Below, piece after piece: positions 2,874-32,695 of a DNA stretch of 35,664 nt. How positions within the stretch are numbered: the first letter of the stretch is position 1; every line of letters begins with the position of its first letter. The position numbers and the translations under genes were made by a program. Below the pieces are notes generated by a model. It saw nothing but the letters and a program-made list of their open reading frames with translations. It was not told the DNA's origin and searched no databases. Source of the stretch: a virus. The stretch is from IMG/VR virus record IMGVR_UViG_3300029286_000136, positions 1 to 35,664 of that record; one strand, written 5' to 3'.

Positions 2874-3109
2874 AGATTTTCTGGTGTTTTTTAAAAGAAA
2901 CATGGGCTTTTCGTTTTATTTGTGAACATTATTCTAACGAAATGCCTAAACATAATCATACATTTGATAAATGCGATGATTATGACATTAAATATGTATG
3001 TAGTCCGACACAGTTAATAATAGGAGTTAAGGCAGATACTAAAACAATTTGTCATATAGACTCAAACCGTTGGTACGAAACATTTATTGAGGATAATAAC
3101 AATGAATAA
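2870..3109 (+). CDS. Hypothetical protein (79 aa)
   Basis: Start chosen at ATG 2870, preceded by AAGGA at about 2858. A TTG 21 bases earlier gives a longer frame but no better signal. The product is 79 residues with an aromatic N-terminus (FWCFLKETWAFRF) and several Cys and His residues. It resembles no family I can name. It overlaps both neighbours, lying directly before the nucleotide-sugar dehydrogenase-like gene. Confidence 0.6.
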   Translation: MKIFWCFLKETWAFRFICEHYSNEMPKHNHTFDKCDDYDIKYVCSPTQLIIGVKADTKTICHIDSNRWYETFIEDNNNE

Positions 3110-3911
3110 ATATCAAATAGGAATTGTAGGATATGGAGTTGTGGGAAAAGGAATTCATAAATTATTTGATGATGAAGTACTTGCCATATATGATCCTCAA
3201 AAAGTATTTACTGAGCAAATAAAGTTTAAATATTTAGATCTTATCGTAATAAGTGTTCCAACGAATGAATTATCAGATGGAACATGTGACACATCAATAG
3301 TTTTTGAAACTTTATCTTGGATAAAAAATATAGAATATAAAGGAATTGTATTAATTAAATCAACAACTCCGCCAACTGAATTAAAACGATTCAAAGAAAT
3401 TTTTCAAGATCTCAGAATAGTATTTAGCCCAGAATATATGGGAGAAAGCAAGTATTTTACCCCATTTTGGAAATATCCGGACCCGCAAGATATGAGAGGG
3501 CATACTTGGCAAATCTTTGGCGGAAATAAGGCAGATACTTCTATTTGCGTGGATATATTTCAAAGAAAAATGTCAGTGGATACTAATTTTATGCAAACGG
3601 ATATTGTCACAGCAGGATTAACCAAATATATGGAAAACTGTTTTTTTGCTACGAAAGTTACATTTTGCAATGAATTTTATGATATAGCAAAAAAACTGGG
3701 AGTCGATTATAACGAATTGAGAGAATGCTGGCTAGCTGATCCAAGACTTAACCGAAATCATACATTAGTATTTAGTAGAGAACGTGGATATGGCGGAAAA
3801 TGTTTTCCTAAAGATTTAAAAGGAATAATAAAAGATGCTGAAACTCTTGGATATTCAGCTGATCTTTTAAAAGCTGTTAATTTTGTTAATGAGAAAATTA
3901 GAAATGATTAA
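3102..3911 (+). CDS. UDP-glucose/GDP-mannose dehydrogenase-like protein lacking the C-terminal domain
   Basis: A 269-residue protein of the nucleotide-sugar dehydrogenase family, which oxidises UDP-hexose to UDP-hexuronate in two NAD-dependent steps. The N-terminus has a Rossmann GxGxxG (GYGVVG). The central domain has the ENCFFATKVTFCNE-type helix with the conserved Lys. The catalytic Cys is C234 in GYGGKCFPKD, matching the GFGGSCFPKD family motif. Full enzymes run about 380-450 residues. This one ends some 35 residues after the catalytic Cys, so the C-terminal UDP-binding domain is missing. It may therefore use a different substrate or need a partner. ATG 3102 is preferred over TTG 3087 because TTGAGG upstream can serve as ribosome binding site. 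It overlaps both neighbours. Confidence 0.85.
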   Translation: MNKYQIGIVGYGVVGKGIHKLFDDEVLAIYDPQKVFTEQIKFKYLDLIVISVPTNELSDGTCDTSIVFETLSWIKNIEYKGIVLIKSTTPPTELKRFKEIFQDLRIVFSPEYMGESKYFTPFWKYPDPQDMRGHTWQIFGGNKADTSICVDIFQRKMSVDTNFMQTDIVTAGLTKYMENCFFATKVTFCNEFYDIAKKLGVDYNELRECWLADPRLNRNHTLVFSRERGYGGKCFPKDLKGIIKDAETLGYSADLLKAVNFVNEKIRND

Positions 3912-4500
3912 AATAACTGAACAAATGGAATTGTTTATTAGTTTGCAGAGAACTAATATAAAAACTAATTTTGCAAATAGATATTTAAAAAGTTTATTGC
4001 AAGATTATAAAGATATAAGAGATTATTTACCTAAAGGATATTCGCAAGTTACAATGTTAGATATTGGATGCGGTCTAGCCGGTATAGATCTGTTATTATA
4101 TGAACATTACAATAAAAATTTAACTATTAGGCTTTTCGATTATAATTCTGTATCTGAAAATTTGCATTACGGATATAAAGATAAGGCATCTCATTATAAT
4201 AGCCTTATATTAGCAGGACAATTCTTAAAACTCAATGGCGTAGCTAAAAACCAAATAGGATTACATGAAGTAGAAAAGGGATTTCCAGAAAAACAATACG
4301 ATTTAATAATTTCACTGATTAGTTATTGTTTTCATTACCCAGTACAAACTTATCTAAAAAATATCAGAAAATATAAAGGTGTAGTTAAGATTTTTGATGT
4401 TAGAAAAGATACAGATCAGATAAAAACTTTATTAGATAATTTTCAATTTGTTCAAATTTTAGCGGATTACCAGAAATACTTGAGAATATTAATAAAATGA
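3904..4500 (+). CDS. SAM-dependent methyltransferase-like protein
   Basis: A 198-residue protein with the glycine-rich SAM-binding motif I, LDIGCGLAGIDLLL, near residue 50. An acidic residue follows at the end of strand 2 (LFDYNS), and motif IV-like DLIISLISY follows later. This is a class I methyltransferase fold, with the substrate undetermined. The start is taken at ATG 3904, overlapping the stop of the dehydrogenase gene by eight bases. A longer frame from 3883 would overlap more. The context between a sugar dehydrogenase and a glycosyltransferase suggests methylation of a sugar or glycan. The final ATGA overlaps the next gene. Confidence 0.75.
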   Translation: MIKITEQMELFISLQRTNIKTNFANRYLKSLLQDYKDIRDYLPKGYSQVTMLDIGCGLAGIDLLLYEHYNKNLTIRLFDYNSVSENLHYGYKDKASHYNSLILAGQFLKLNGVAKNQIGLHEVEKGFPEKQYDLIISLISYCFHYPVQTYLKNIRKYKGVVKIFDVRKDTDQIKTLLDNFQFVQILADYQKYLRILIK

Positions 4501-4631
4501 AAAAGAATTGTAAAATTTGTGGGAAAGAGTTTGAAAGACAATATAATAGACAGCTATGTTGTTCTAAAGAATGTAGTATTGTTGCTAGAGAGTTTAATTT
4601 AACACTAGAACAACCAAGGTTAATAATATGA
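4497..4631 (+). CDS. Small zinc-finger protein (44 aa)
   Basis: ATG 4497 overlaps the methyltransferase stop, and the TGA at 4629-4631 overlaps the glycosyltransferase start, so both junctions are ATGA. The 44 residues contain CKICGKEFER followed by CCSKEC, a C-x2-C...C-x3-C zinc knuckle of the kind seen in many short phage proteins. Its role is unknown. It could be a nucleic acid binding module or a degraded HNH domain, since the cysteine spacing is HNH-like but no catalytic histidines follow. The C-x2-C phrase resembles that of the small protein at 26695-26823. Confidence 0.7.
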   Translation: MKKNCKICGKEFERQYNRQLCCSKECSIVAREFNLTLEQPRLII

Positions 4632-6598
4632 GATTATACTCTATTGAGTTTACTCCAACCTGGTCTTTCGGCTTAATCTTTAATAATTTTCAACTAAATA
4701 AAGGGTTGAATATAACTAGAACATTTTTTAATCTAGGTAATACTATTAATACGAATAAACAGGATATAATTATGAGCCAAAATGTTACATTGCTTAAAAA
4801 GTTTACTGAACGATTAAAAACTATATGTAGACTTGGAGGCAACTACAACTTCGATGGAATGCAAAAGTTAGAACCTTTACTTTTAGAAATGAGTAAATGC
4901 TATTGTTTAATAGCAACGAACCAAAAGCTCTATGAAATAGGTAAAACTGTTAATCCCAGAACTTACTTAATCCCAAATGGCTTAAATTTAGAAAATTGGC
5001 CTATTGTATATCGAAATAATGAATCCAAAGAGATAGTAGCTGGCTTTTGCGGGAATATTTCAAATCCTTGGTATCGTGATTATAAAGGATATGATTTAGT
5101 GAAAGAAGCATGTGAAAATTTAGGAATAACATTAAAAACAGCTCTATATAATAATGAACAAATACCGCATGACAAGATGCAAGAGTTATTTTATTCTAAA
5201 ATCGATGTCTTAATACATCCTACACTGGGAGAAGGCTGTATTCCAGAAGATCAGGAGCTTTTTGTAAATAATAGATTAATAAAAGCTAAAGATGTAAGAA
5301 TAGGTGATAAATTATCTGGTGGGACTGTTAATAAAATATTTAATAATGGTACATCTAATTTATGGTATGAATTTAATACTAATAGACTTCCATCTTTTAG
5401 CACAACGTCAGAACATCCAATAAAAATAGCTAAATGGAAATATAAATGGAGTATAAATGGAATAAAAACAACTAAAAGACAAATAACTGAAACTATATGG
5501 AAAAAAGCAGAAGAAGTAAAAGAAAATGATTATTTAGTAATTCCTAAATATACAGAAATAGAAAATAATTTAGAAATAAAATTGCGTGATTTTAATGATA
5601 AAAATAAAATCCAACAATCCAATACTTTGTTAACTATTGACGAAGATTTAGCCTATTTATTGGGTTGGTATTTAGCTGAAGGATCTATCGGAGATAGAAC
5701 ACAAATACATTTATCTCTTGGCAAGCATGAAATTAAGCATATTGAAAATTTACAAAAAATACTTGAGCAAAAATTAGGTAAAAAAATTAATTATCGCACA
5801 AGAAAATCAGTAATAGAGATAAGATTTAGACATGCGCCACTTGCGGAATGGATAAAAAATAATTTTGGAAATAATGTATATGATAAGAGAATTCCCAATA
5901 TAATAATGAAATCAAATCCTAATATAGTAAAAAAATTTATAGAAGGATATTTACATGGCGACGGACATCTAGAAAAAAATGGACAGTGGTTAGTAAATAA
6001 TGCTTCAAAAGAATTATCATACCAATTAGTATTATTGTGTACCAAAATAAATATACTACCAGCTTTTTATGTTTACAAAAGAACAAATAGAGATAGAATT
6101 ATTGCTGGTAAAAAATGTCAAGTATCAGAAAATTTATACGTATTAAGAATCATATTTGATACATCGATGGAAGTAGGATATTTTTCTGATAAAATTAATT
6201 TTTATGTAAAAATAAAAAAAATAAATAAGCTTAATAAAATTTCTCAAAGAATTAATTTTGAAACTGATACTCACGAATTTAATGTTCTCTATTTTAATAC
6301 TCATAATTGCAGTAATACGTTGATGGAAGCTACTGCTAGTGGCGTACCTGTAATAACTACTAGAACAGCAGGATTTCACGGAGAAAGATTAGATAACTAT
6401 ATAAACGCATTATTTTGTAATAGAACAATTAGAAGTATTCAAGATAGTTTAATTGATTTAATTAAAAATGTAAAATTAAGAAAAGGACTATCTGTTAATG
6501 GAAGGAAATTTGCAGAAAAGCATCACGATATTAATAAAATATCAAAACAATACGAACTAATTTTTCAAGAATGTTATATATTTAATAATCCTAAATAA
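4628..6598 (+). CDS. GT4-like glycosyltransferase interrupted by an intein
   Basis: A 656-residue precursor. Residues 1-203 and 561-656 join into a 299-residue glycosyltransferase of the GT-B, family-4 type. Visible marks are LIPNGLNLENWP (linker), a GFCGNISNPWYRDYKGYDL stretch, and the donor-site motif. After removal of the intein the sequence reads HPTLGEG then CSNTLMEA, restoring a perfect E-x7-E motif followed by SGVPVITT. The acceptor and sugar are unknown. The preceding dehydrogenase hints at a uronic acid donor. The ATG overlaps the zinc-finger stop (4628-4631). Promoter P2 lies just downstream, so this is the last gene of its transcription unit. An uninterrupted two-domain fusion is unlikely because both splice junctions match intein rules. 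Confidence 0.9.
   Translation: MRLYSIEFTPTWSFGLIFNNFQLNKGLNITRTFFNLGNTINTNKQDIIMSQNVTLLKKFTERLKTICRLGGNYNFDGMQKLEPLLLEMSKCYCLIATNQKLYEIGKTVNPRTYLIPNGLNLENWPIVYRNNESKEIVAGFCGNISNPWYRDYKGYDLVKEACENLGITLKTALYNNEQIPHDKMQELFYSKIDVLIHPTLGEGCIPEDQELFVNNRLIKAKDVRIGDKLSGGTVNKIFNNGTSNLWYEFNTNRLPSFSTTSEHPIKIAKWKYKWSINGIKTTKRQITETIWKKAEEVKENDYLVIPKYTEIENNLEIKLRDFNDKNKIQQSNTLLTIDEDLAYLLGWYLAEGSIGDRTQIHLSLGKHEIKHIENLQKILEQKLGKKINYRTRKSVIEIRFRHAPLAEWIKNNFGNNVYDKRIPNIIMKSNPNIVKKFIEGYLHGDGHLEKNGQWLVNNASKELSYQLVLLCTKINILPAFYVYKRTNRDRIIAGKKCQVSENLYVLRIIFDTSMEVGYFSDKINFYVKIKKINKLNKISQRINFETDTHEFNVLYFNTHNCSNTLMEATASGVPVITTRTAGFHGERLDNYINALFCNRTIRSIQDSLIDLIKNVKLRKGLSVNGRKFAEKHHDINKISKQYELIFQECYIFNNPK
5237..6307 (+). 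other. Intein with LAGLIDADG homing endonuclease (357 aa)
   Basis: In-frame intein covering precursor residues 204-560. It starts with the nucleophile C204 (CIPEDQELF, block A). A block B-like T260-S-E-H263-P follows. It ends H559-N560 with C561 as the +1 residue, all as required for standard protein splicing. The two LAGLIDADG-type helices are LLGWYLAEG (345-352 region) and FIEGYLHGDG (437-446). Each has an acidic residue in the expected catalytic place, so the homing nuclease may be active. Block F (HEFNVLYFNT) is shorter than average. The insertion point is within the catalytic E-x7-E motif of the host protein, a typical conserved-site choice for inteins. Confidence 0.92.
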
Positions 6599-6689: not shown

Positions 6690-7976
6690 ATGTCAAAGCT
6701 TAAAAATATTGGAAGTTGTTTAAAAACAGCATTTAATGTAGCAACTGGAAGATGGACACAATTAGATCCTCAAGGATTTCCCGTATTTGATAGAATTACA
6801 AATACTGGAGAAATTGTATCTTCTGAAAACTCTTTATATGTTTCTACTGTTTTTTCTTGCATAAATCTTTTAGCTTCTGTAATTGCTTCTTTACCTTTAA
6901 ATATATATAATACCGAAACGGATGAAGATATATATATTGACAAGGGGAATCCACTTTTTAAATTATTAAGATATCAACCAAATAAATGGCAAACAGCTTA
7001 TGATTATTGGTTATATAATGTTGAATGTATGTTGCTTAGAGGTGGATTTATTTCCTGGAAAAACATGACTTCTTCTGGGAAAATAATGTCATTAATACCT
7101 TTAAATCCTGATACAGTAACTAGAAAACAATTATCAAGTGGTGAAATTGTTATATCTGGAATAGCATCATGGGGATATAATCAATTTATGAAATTTGAAG
7201 AAACTCCTCAAGATGAATTCTTTTGGGCTAATTATAGGACTTTAGACGGTGTAAATCCATGTTCTATTATTAAGTATGCTTGCGAAACAATTGGAATGGC
7301 TAAAACATTAGAAAAACATGGAGCTAAATTAATAAAAAACGATGCAACTCCTCCATTAATTATTAAATACCCTCAAGGATTAGATGAAAAATCAGCAATT
7401 AATATTGCTAAACAATGGAGTGCTGGAAGTTCAGGAGATAATTACGGAAAACCTAGATTTATCGACAAGGGTTCAGATGTAGTAAAATTACAAATGTCAA
7501 ATCAAGATGCACAATATTTAGAAACTAGACAATTTACAGAAGATGAATTATGTGCTTTTTTTAGGGTTTCAAGACATTTCATAAAAGAATCGACTAATAA
7601 AGGTTGGTCAACACTATCAGAAATGGGTGAAGAATTTTTATCATATACATTATGTCCTTATTTAACAAATATTGAACAGGCAGTTAATAGATCCCTAATT
7701 CCTGAAAAGGATTGGGGTGTTGTTTTTGCTGATTTTGATACAAAACAATTAACTAAAGCAAATACAGTAGCAAGAACTGCTTATTATAGAGATATGTATT
7801 ATACTGGGGCTATGAATTCAAACGAAATCAGAATAGCAGAAGGATTAAATCATAGAGAAAATGGAGAAATATATTACCATCAAGGTAATTTACTTGAAGA
7901 CGGAGAAATTCCAGTAACAAAACAAACTATTCCTAAAGAAGAGGTTAAAAATGTCGAAGTTCAACAAAATAATTAA
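6690..7976 (+). CDS. HK97-type portal protein
   Basis: A 428-residue portal of the Phage_portal (HK97) family, forming the dodecameric ring through which DNA enters and leaves the head. Family features include STVFSCINLLASVIASLPL near the N-terminus, the long helical stem region, FFRVSRHFI, and a late NSNEIRIAEGLN segment found in most HK97-like portals. The length is typical. The start ATG 6690 is chosen over TTG 6684, and the start region lacks a strong ribosome binding site. The end overlaps the protease gene by 26 bases. The portal-protease-capsid order confirms the call. Confidence 0.93.
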   Translation: MSKLKNIGSCLKTAFNVATGRWTQLDPQGFPVFDRITNTGEIVSSENSLYVSTVFSCINLLASVIASLPLNIYNTETDEDIYIDKGNPLFKLLRYQPNKWQTAYDYWLYNVECMLLRGGFISWKNMTSSGKIMSLIPLNPDTVTRKQLSSGEIVISGIASWGYNQFMKFEETPQDEFFWANYRTLDGVNPCSIIKYACETIGMAKTLEKHGAKLIKNDATPPLIIKYPQGLDEKSAINIAKQWSAGSSGDNYGKPRFIDKGSDVVKLQMSNQDAQYLETRQFTEDELCAFFRVSRHFIKESTNKGWSTLSEMGEEFLSYTLCPYLTNIEQAVNRSLIPEKDWGVVFADFDTKQLTKANTVARTAYYRDMYYTGAMNSNEIRIAEGLNHRENGEIYYHQGNLLEDGEIPVTKQTIPKEEVKNVEVQQNN

Positions 7977-8790
7977 AAATTTATCAACACCAAGAAAATG
8001 GTTTGATGTATATAATACTGAAAAGGAAATCCCTGAACTTATTATCTATGATATGATAGGTTCCTCCATGTGGGAAGAAGGAATAAGCCCAAAAGCTTTT
8101 ATTAAAGAGATTGCTAATTTAGAAAAAAAACATAAAGAAGTAAATATTAGAATAAACTCCCCAGGAGGTATTGTACACGATGGTTTCGTTATTTACAATG
8201 CCTTAAAGCAATCTTCTTTGAAAAAAAATGTATATATTGATGGGATGGCCGCATCTTGTGCATCTTTTATAGCAATGGCAGGCGATAGAATCTTTATGCC
8301 AGAAACAGCAGAAATAATGATTCATAATGCTTGGGGTATTGCGATGGGAAATGCTAAAGATTTTATGAAAGAATCTGAACATTTATCTTCACTCGATAAA
8401 ATTATAGCAAATATATATGCAAGCAACAATAAACTATCAAAAACAGAAGGAGAAATGTTAGAATGGATGGATAAAGAAACTTGGATGAATGGTAAAGAAG
8501 CCATTGAATTTGGGTTTGCGGATGAATTACTAACATGTAGAGCAGTAGCATGTGCATTTGATTTAGATTTGGATTTACTGCCTAACTTACCAGAAAATTT
8601 TATTAAATATCAAAATTCATTACAAAAAAGAATCAAAGAGAATGAATTGCGTGATGCAGGACATTCAAGAAATGAAGCCAAGGAGCTTATTTCTAAACAG
8701 CGTGATGCTGGGAAAAAAGATTCTGAAAAATTAACAAACGAAGCACATAAATTTTTTATTAACAAACTAAAGGAGTTTAAAAATGTCTGA
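7951..8790 (+). CDS. ClpP-like prohead maturation protease
   Basis: A 279-residue serine protease of the ClpP/S14 family, placed between portal and capsid. It should remove the N-terminal scaffold-like part of the capsid protein and itself during head maturation. Visible features: NSPGGIVHDG oxyanion region (69-78), GMAASCASFIAM with nucleophile S102, MIHNAWG with catalytic H125, and probable acid D149. A charged C-terminal extension after about residue 215, including two RDAG repeats, exceeds plain ClpP and is usual in prohead versions. Start and end overlap both neighbours. Confidence 0.93.
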   Translation: MSKFNKIIKNLSTPRKWFDVYNTEKEIPELIIYDMIGSSMWEEGISPKAFIKEIANLEKKHKEVNIRINSPGGIVHDGFVIYNALKQSSLKKNVYIDGMAASCASFIAMAGDRIFMPETAEIMIHNAWGIAMGNAKDFMKESEHLSSLDKIIANIYASNNKLSKTEGEMLEWMDKETWMNGKEAIEFGFADELLTCRAVACAFDLDLDLLPNLPENFIKYQNSLQKRIKENELRDAGHSRNEAKELISKQRDAGKKDSEKLTNEAHKFFINKLKEFKNV

Positions 8791-32086: not shown

Positions 32087-32695
32087 TTAAAACTCTAATG
32101 TATCTTTTTTTGTTACATAACGGTCAAATAAATTTAGTTTTAAAGCTTCTGAAGCTGACATATGTTTATCTTTGGGCAAAAATTCCTTAAAGAATTTTGC
32201 TGGTTTGCCGGTTATTTTAACTAGATTTTTTATTACAAACTCATTTGTTTTTCTAAGATCATCATAGTCTAACTTAACTTTATTAACTTTTTTTGCTCCA
32301 TCATTTCCCGTTATTGCTCCATCATGTATCATCCATCTCGAGTAAGGATAACTCAGTCTATATCCAGGAGTCCCATTATACGCAATCATAGCTCCGCCCG
32401 AACAAGCCTTATTATAATTTATAGTTCTAATTTTTTTAGGAGATTGATTCATTGCAGTTATTATTAATACTGTTGCATCAAAAGATCCTCCAGGACTATC
32501 GATGAAAATATTTATAAATTCTTTCTCAGTTCGATTTAAAAAAAGTATTTGTTTTAAAACATCAGTCCCTATTTCGTCTAAAATAAGACCTTCAATGAAT
32601 ATATTGCCTCTTATAAGATTGTAAGTATCATGCGGTACAAATTGATAAGTTTCGCCGCTAACTATTGGAACTTGTACATCAGAAAAATCTTTCAT
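32087..32695 (-). CDS. Second ClpP-like serine protease (202 aa)
   Basis: A 202-residue ClpP/S14-family protein. Landmarks are FIDSPGGSFDA (66-74), KACSGGAMIAYNG with putative nucleophile S99, WMIHDG with H124, an acidic helix near D145-D146, and the SASEALKLNLFD tail. It lacks the long C-terminal extension of the capsid-operon protease, so it is not a duplicate prohead enzyme. It may associate with or replace host ClpP, perhaps to redirect host proteolysis. No Clp ATPase gene is visible. Confidence 0.82.
   Translation of the reverse strand: MKDFSDVQVPIVSGETYQFVPHDTYNLIRGNIFIEGLILDEIGTDVLKQILFLNRTEKEFINIFIDSPGGSFDATVLIITAMNQSPKKIRTINYNKACSGGAMIAYNGTPGYRLSYPYSRWMIHDGAITGNDGAKKVNKVKLDYDDLRKTNEFVIKNLVKITGKPAKFFKEFLPKDKHMSASEALKLNLFDRYVTKKDTLEF

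Follow-up and report, generated by a model that had tools for sequence, protein, structure and literature searches.

A predicted class-1 LAGLIDADG intein inside the E-x7-E motif of a viral GT4 glycosyltransferase, a likely recurrent target of inteins

Background

Inteins found in the TerL, RecB-like and TOPRIM proteins of mycobacteriophages lie beside or inside catalytic motifs, are sporadic, and have intein-free relatives; the hosts surveyed are mainly nucleic-acid enzymes, and a glycosyltransferase is unmentioned (PMC5050341). A comparable element resides in the TerL protein of the crAss-like cr131_1 (NC_055902), and shows class-1 blocks, LAGLIDADG motifs, Cys+1, and Asn at position 4 of block F (F:4). 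The inteins of solved structure TliVMA/PhoVMA and PI-SceI, hosted by V-ATPase subunits, combine a Hint domain with a two-motif LAGLIDADG endonuclease.

The element described here is found in a stretch of viral DNA of 35,664 nucleotides analysed in full (hereafter, the window; IMG/VR record IMGVR_UViG_3300029286_000136, positions 1 to 35,664). It resembles the mycobacteriophage inteins in placement, sporadic occurrence and the existence of intein-free relatives. It shares the features listed above with the cr131_1 intein, which is its nearest relative in the tree (support 92/91) and of similar length (353 vs. 357 aa), yet is only about 25% identical, and is hosted by TerL, not by a glycosyltransferase (GT). 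TliVMA/PhoVMA and PI-SceI share its two-motif LAGLIDADG endonuclease, and probably its Hint domain, and are its best fold matches, TliVMA being also its best match in sequence, but they are distant in sequence and differ in host.

Results

The coordinates of the features are collected in Table 1. The intein was located exactly where the initial annotation had placed it, precursor residues 204-560 starting with C-I-P-E-D-Q and ending with N-T-H-N, followed by C561. The joined extein reads HPTLGEG-CSNTLMEATASGVP, with seven residues between E202 and the Glu of MEA. Removal of the intein restores GEG-CSNTLMEA, an intact E-x7-E motif as had been proposed, and the point of insertion falls after the first and before the second of the seven residues that separate the two glutamates. 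The joined empty site of the window has the DNA sequence GGAGAAGGC/TGCAGTAATACG, the slash marking the junction here and below.

Table 1. Location of the precursor gene, of its parts and neighbours in the window, and of GT4 inteins lacking Cys1 in other viral contigs
Feature	Location	Strand	Remarks
UDP-glucose/GDP-mannose dehydrogenase gene	3087..3911	+	PF00984 1.2e-22, PF03721 2.1e-7, phrog_9148
Methyltransferase-like gene	3883..4497	+	DIGCG motif, by eye; 41% identical to L002:5393-6001
Precursor ORF, GT4-type glycosyltransferase with in-frame intein	4628..6598	+	656 aa; open throughout
N-extein	4628..5236	+	203 aa; C-terminal H-P-T-L-G-E-G includes first Glu of E-x7-E (E202)
Intein	5237..6307	+	357 aa, Cys1 to Asn357; precursor residues 204-560
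Intein block A	5237..5272	+	CIPEDQELFVNN; Cys1 nucleophile
Intein block B	5402..5428	+	TTSEHPIKI; T-x-x-H, T-S-E-H at intein aa 57-60
First LAGLIDADG motif	5657..5686	+	LLGWYLAEGS; intein aa 141-150; acidic residue Glu
Second LAGLIDADG motif	5936..5968	+	FIEGYLHGDGH; intein aa 234-244; acidic residue Asp; LAGLIDADG_3
Intein blocks F and G	6251..6307	+	INFETDTHEFNVLYFNTHN; block-F His, His before terminal Asn
C-extein	6308..6595	+	96 aa; C+1 SNTLMEATASGVP and second Glu of E-x7-E
GT4 intein without Cys1, L014	8351-9448	-
GT4 intein without Cys1, L019	5348-6454	-
GT4 intein without Cys1, L024	8933-10030	-
GT4 intein without Cys1, L015	5434-6474	+

The host protein is a GT4 enzyme, in line with the earlier assignment. 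Upon removal of the intein the match to the Pfam family Glycos_transf_1 improves from 5.1e-6 to 3.9e-11 (43.2 bits vs. a cut-off of 26.4), and that to Glyco_trans_1_4 from 1.7e-4 to 5.2e-10. The PHROG glycosyltransferase family phrog_2170 is matched by the joined extein (3e-10) and not by the uncut protein, and such genes are therefore easily mis-annotated. E-GCSNTLM-E aligns with the E-x7-E motif of BshA (2jjm) and WaaG (8b5s) in both profile and single-sequence PDB searches. The E-x7-E motif of GT4 enzymes contacts the nucleotide-sugar donor. Among 279 segments of 20 residues, the one spanning the junction ranks second in conservation within this GT family, as measured on four sequences only. 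No relative of the GT was found in GTDB species genomes.

Intein-free homologues, sought in uncultured viral contigs with the joined extein (299 aa) as query, were found in three of them. L002, L003 and L005 are 61%, 56% and 57% identical, respectively, to the joined extein over residues 1-292 of 299, without large insertions. They lack exactly residues 204-560, which bears out the predicted boundaries. When the uncut protein is used as query, the splice points interrupt the alignments to L002 and L003, the N-extein being 62% and 58% identical, respectively, up to exactly its last residue, and the C-extein 60% and 54%. The empty sites read GEG/SSNTLMEA in L002 and GEG/CSNTLMEA in both L003 and L005; in the 40 nucleotides around them, 27-29 are identical to the joined site of the window. 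These sites argue more strongly than any other evidence that the insert is, as judged by alignment, a precise mobile insertion.

Together with the nucleotide-sugar dehydrogenase and methyltransferase-like genes, the GT4 gene makes up a small sugar cassette set between the terminase and portal genes of an HK97-type tailed phage. The methyltransferase-like gene has no Pfam match; its pairing with the GT recurs in L002. In L003 and L005 the GT is located, by eye, among structural genes, and the GT of the window is therefore probably accessory, with either the virion or the surface of the host as its target. The terminase of the window is nearest, at about 42%, to terminases of phages of Firmicutes, a weak hint at a Firmicutes host. 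An HNH endonuclease gene (88-483) directly precedes the small terminase gene (480-950), a common arrangement in cos phages. A second gene resembling ClpP/head maturation proteases (32087-32695, minus strand; phrog_94, 1.6e-14) resides in an opposite-strand gene block, a long way from its structural counterpart at 7951-8790.

The intein contains blocks A, B, C, E, F and G, and has the class-1 nucleophiles; Cys1 (encoded from position 5237), T-x-x-H in block B, and H356 and N357 followed by C+1 are the class-1 features found. Blocks F and G can be aligned to those of the cr131_1 TerL intein (...NFECGTHTFMCRNILTHN). At F:4 the intein has Asn in place of the customary Asp, a feature shared with three of four aligned phage inteins (cr131_1, Eggerthella, Enterococcus); Asp at F:4 was taken as common, not universal, and was not used to define class 1. 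Two LAGLIDADG helices had been predicted and both motifs were found, their acidic residues intact (E in LAEGS, D in HGDGH). The middle of the precursor matches LAGLIDADG_3 (PF14528) at E=1.2e-7, above the curated cut-off, the Pfam intein-splicing model scoring below its own (17.4 vs. 35.8 bits). The sole PDB sequences matched by the insert are TliVMA inteins (E=5.8e-11) and PI-PkoII (E=5.4e-8). The LAGLIDADG_3 score, the PDB intein matches, and the homologues lacking exactly this stretch argue that the insert is not a chance resemblance. The best NCBIfam matches over the insert are models of archaeal RNA polymerase A'', V-type ATP synthase A and DNA polymerase II, all of which are intein hosts.

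In an AlphaFold model of the insert, built from six sequences, pLDDT is mostly 70-88 in the endonuclease, whose predicted helices 136-148 and 228-242 overlap the LAGLIDADG motifs, and about 25-60 in the splicing domain; the splicing active site is for this reason visible by sequence only. The whole precursor was predicted with a pLDDT of 56, and this model was discarded for its low quality. In Foldseek searches of the PDB with the whole insert model, to be read with the low pLDDT of the splicing domain in mind, TliVMA (7qsu, E=5e-16) ranks first, and the PhoVMA, PI-SceI and PI-PfuI inteins and I-DmoI are also among the top matches. In annotated phages, relatives of the intein reside in terminase, portal, RNR and methylase genes. 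Close copies were found neither in viral contigs nor in plasmids, the latter yielding one 30% partial match only; there is consequently no direct sign of recent homing.

Inteins at the donor motif of other viral GTs were searched by scanning all IMG/VR contigs for a C-terminal splice junction followed by the GT4 motif (HN-[CST]-x5-E-A-x-A-x-G-x-P). Beyond chance matches, the scan yielded four GT4 ORFs (L014, L015 with its copies, L019, L024), and a GT-like one, L018, which matches a GT only weakly (Pfam E=0.05) and whose motif lacks the first Glu. Inteins of all five are inserted at the same residue as in the window; intein-free homologues with intact sites exist for L014- and L018-type GTs. 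A second scan, in which the junction pattern was moved by one residue, had been meant as a negative control, and was rejected as such because eight of nine matches were GT4 inteins lying one residue further on (L086 and its copy L092, L088, L089, L090, L091, L093, L094). Since the shifted pattern also retrieves GT4 inteins, the recurrence does not stem from the choice of one exact pattern. In representatives, Pfam matches confirmed both the GT and the intein domains. Both scans covered the E-x7-E motif only, and show recurrence there, not a preference over other GT4 sites. A relaxed junction pattern added chance matches only. None of the 29 motif matches obtained in GTDB species genomes with the first junction pattern is an intein; an in-frame match, L039, was discarded as an uninterrupted GT which happens to contain HNC.

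Besides the window, 12 distinct viral GT ORFs, making up four further sets, carry an intein at or beside the motif, the first two sets (L014, L015, L019 and L024; L018) at the residue used in the window, the last two (L090; L086/L092, L088, L089, L091, L093 and L094) at the next one. The supposition that few inteins occur in GTs holds for the literature searched, in which no case is described (intein databases and most subscription papers lay outside its scope), but not for viral sequences. The inteins of L014, L015, L019 and L024 lack Cys1, replaced by Ala or Lys, and keep Cys+1 and Asp at F:4; they are candidate class-2-like inteins. The LAGLIDADG motifs of L015 look degenerate by eye. The L086, L088, L091 and L094 inteins feature Pro1 and Cys at F:4, but apparently neither the Trp nor the Thr of the class-3 WCT motif. 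L086 carries an HNH domain; L091 is a mini-intein of 147 aa, with no room for a large nuclease. More LAGLIDADG_3 matches were noticed in other long ORFs (999, 2,710 and 2,456 aa) of the records holding L014, L019 and L056 (G004, G006, G010), and L014-type phages may be intein-rich.

Between the five sets, exteins resemble one another only in stretches that are short or weakly similar and for the most part lie around the motif. Their inteins do not form one clade, a single clade being rejected both for the first three sets (AU p=0.0005, tree of 20 inteins) and for all five (p=0.001, tree of 27 rows); these values ruled out that one invasion had been followed by spread of the intein, through homing, from one GT family to another. 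The intein of the window could not be separated from the L014 set in the former tree (p=0.24), nor from L090 in the latter (p=0.06), hence the trees point to at least two independent invasions, and probably more.

Discussion

The insert is almost certainly a class-1 intein of full length that includes a homing endonuclease with two LAGLIDADG motifs; it interrupts the E-x7-E motif of a GT4 enzyme and is probably active. We infer that, after translation, an N-S acyl shift would take place at Cys1, Cys561 (+1) would take over the N-extein, and Asn357 would cyclise with the assistance of the His residues of blocks F and G, to leave a 299-aa enzyme in which E-x7-E is intact. The unspliced precursor should not bind the sugar donor, and because of the position of the intein in the donor motif sugar transfer would depend on splicing. 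At the DNA level, when a co-infecting relative has an intein-free copy of the gene, the endonuclease would cut that copy and the intein would be copied in, conservation of the motif limiting both escape and imprecise loss.

The same dependence would suit an intein kept as a conditional switch, the GT being off until a redox, metal or temperature trigger permits splicing. Conditional splicing has been described for other inteins (reviewed in PMC4031507), and the position in the catalytic motif would make the precursor inactive. Yet nothing but this position speaks for regulation by splicing here, no trigger is hinted at by the sequence, and patchy distribution, an intact endonuclease and a site in a conserved motif are what is predicted for a selfish element (PMC2814812); a switch is therefore improbable. 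The intein might instead be degenerate and no longer splice, the GT being dead or cleaved and the insert on its way to be lost. Asn at F:4, the weak match to the Pfam splicing model and the origin from an uncultured contig fit such decay, against which stand the open frame, splice nucleophiles and endonuclease catalytic acids all intact, well conserved exteins and an unbroken joined motif, so that decay is highly improbable. That the insert is a domain integral to the GT, or one of unrelated origin inserted without splicing, found no support and has next to no likelihood, given an endonuclease fold, splice-block residues and three homologues missing exactly that stretch.

With an intein of a crAss-like phage terminase as the nearest relative found, the element of the window is an unremarkable class-1 LAGLIDADG intein, and what is unusual is its host protein. 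It is likely, less firmly than the identity of the insert itself, that the E-x7-E motif of GT4 enzymes is a recurrent viral intein target, hit by independent invasions at two adjacent residues with varied splicing chemistries and nucleases, the intein of the window being one of them; motifs of terminases and DNA polymerases are targeted in a similar way. The variety includes Cys1, Lys or Ala1, and Pro1 with Cys at F:4, together with LAGLIDADG, HNH or no nuclease. As three of the five sets have intein-free homologues, the GT4 catalytic motif lends itself to direct tests of splicing and homing, and the Lys1/Ala1 and Pro1 inteins are candidates for unusual splicing chemistry.

Conclusions

What is new, as far as can be read from these viral genes, is a GT4 host for a known kind of element, and a motif hit repeatedly in viral GT4 enzymes. 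Sugar-transferring enzymes, which lie outside DNA metabolism, would join the enzymes invaded by phage inteins, and the rule would be the same as elsewhere, inteins landing in the part of a protein that is unable to change.
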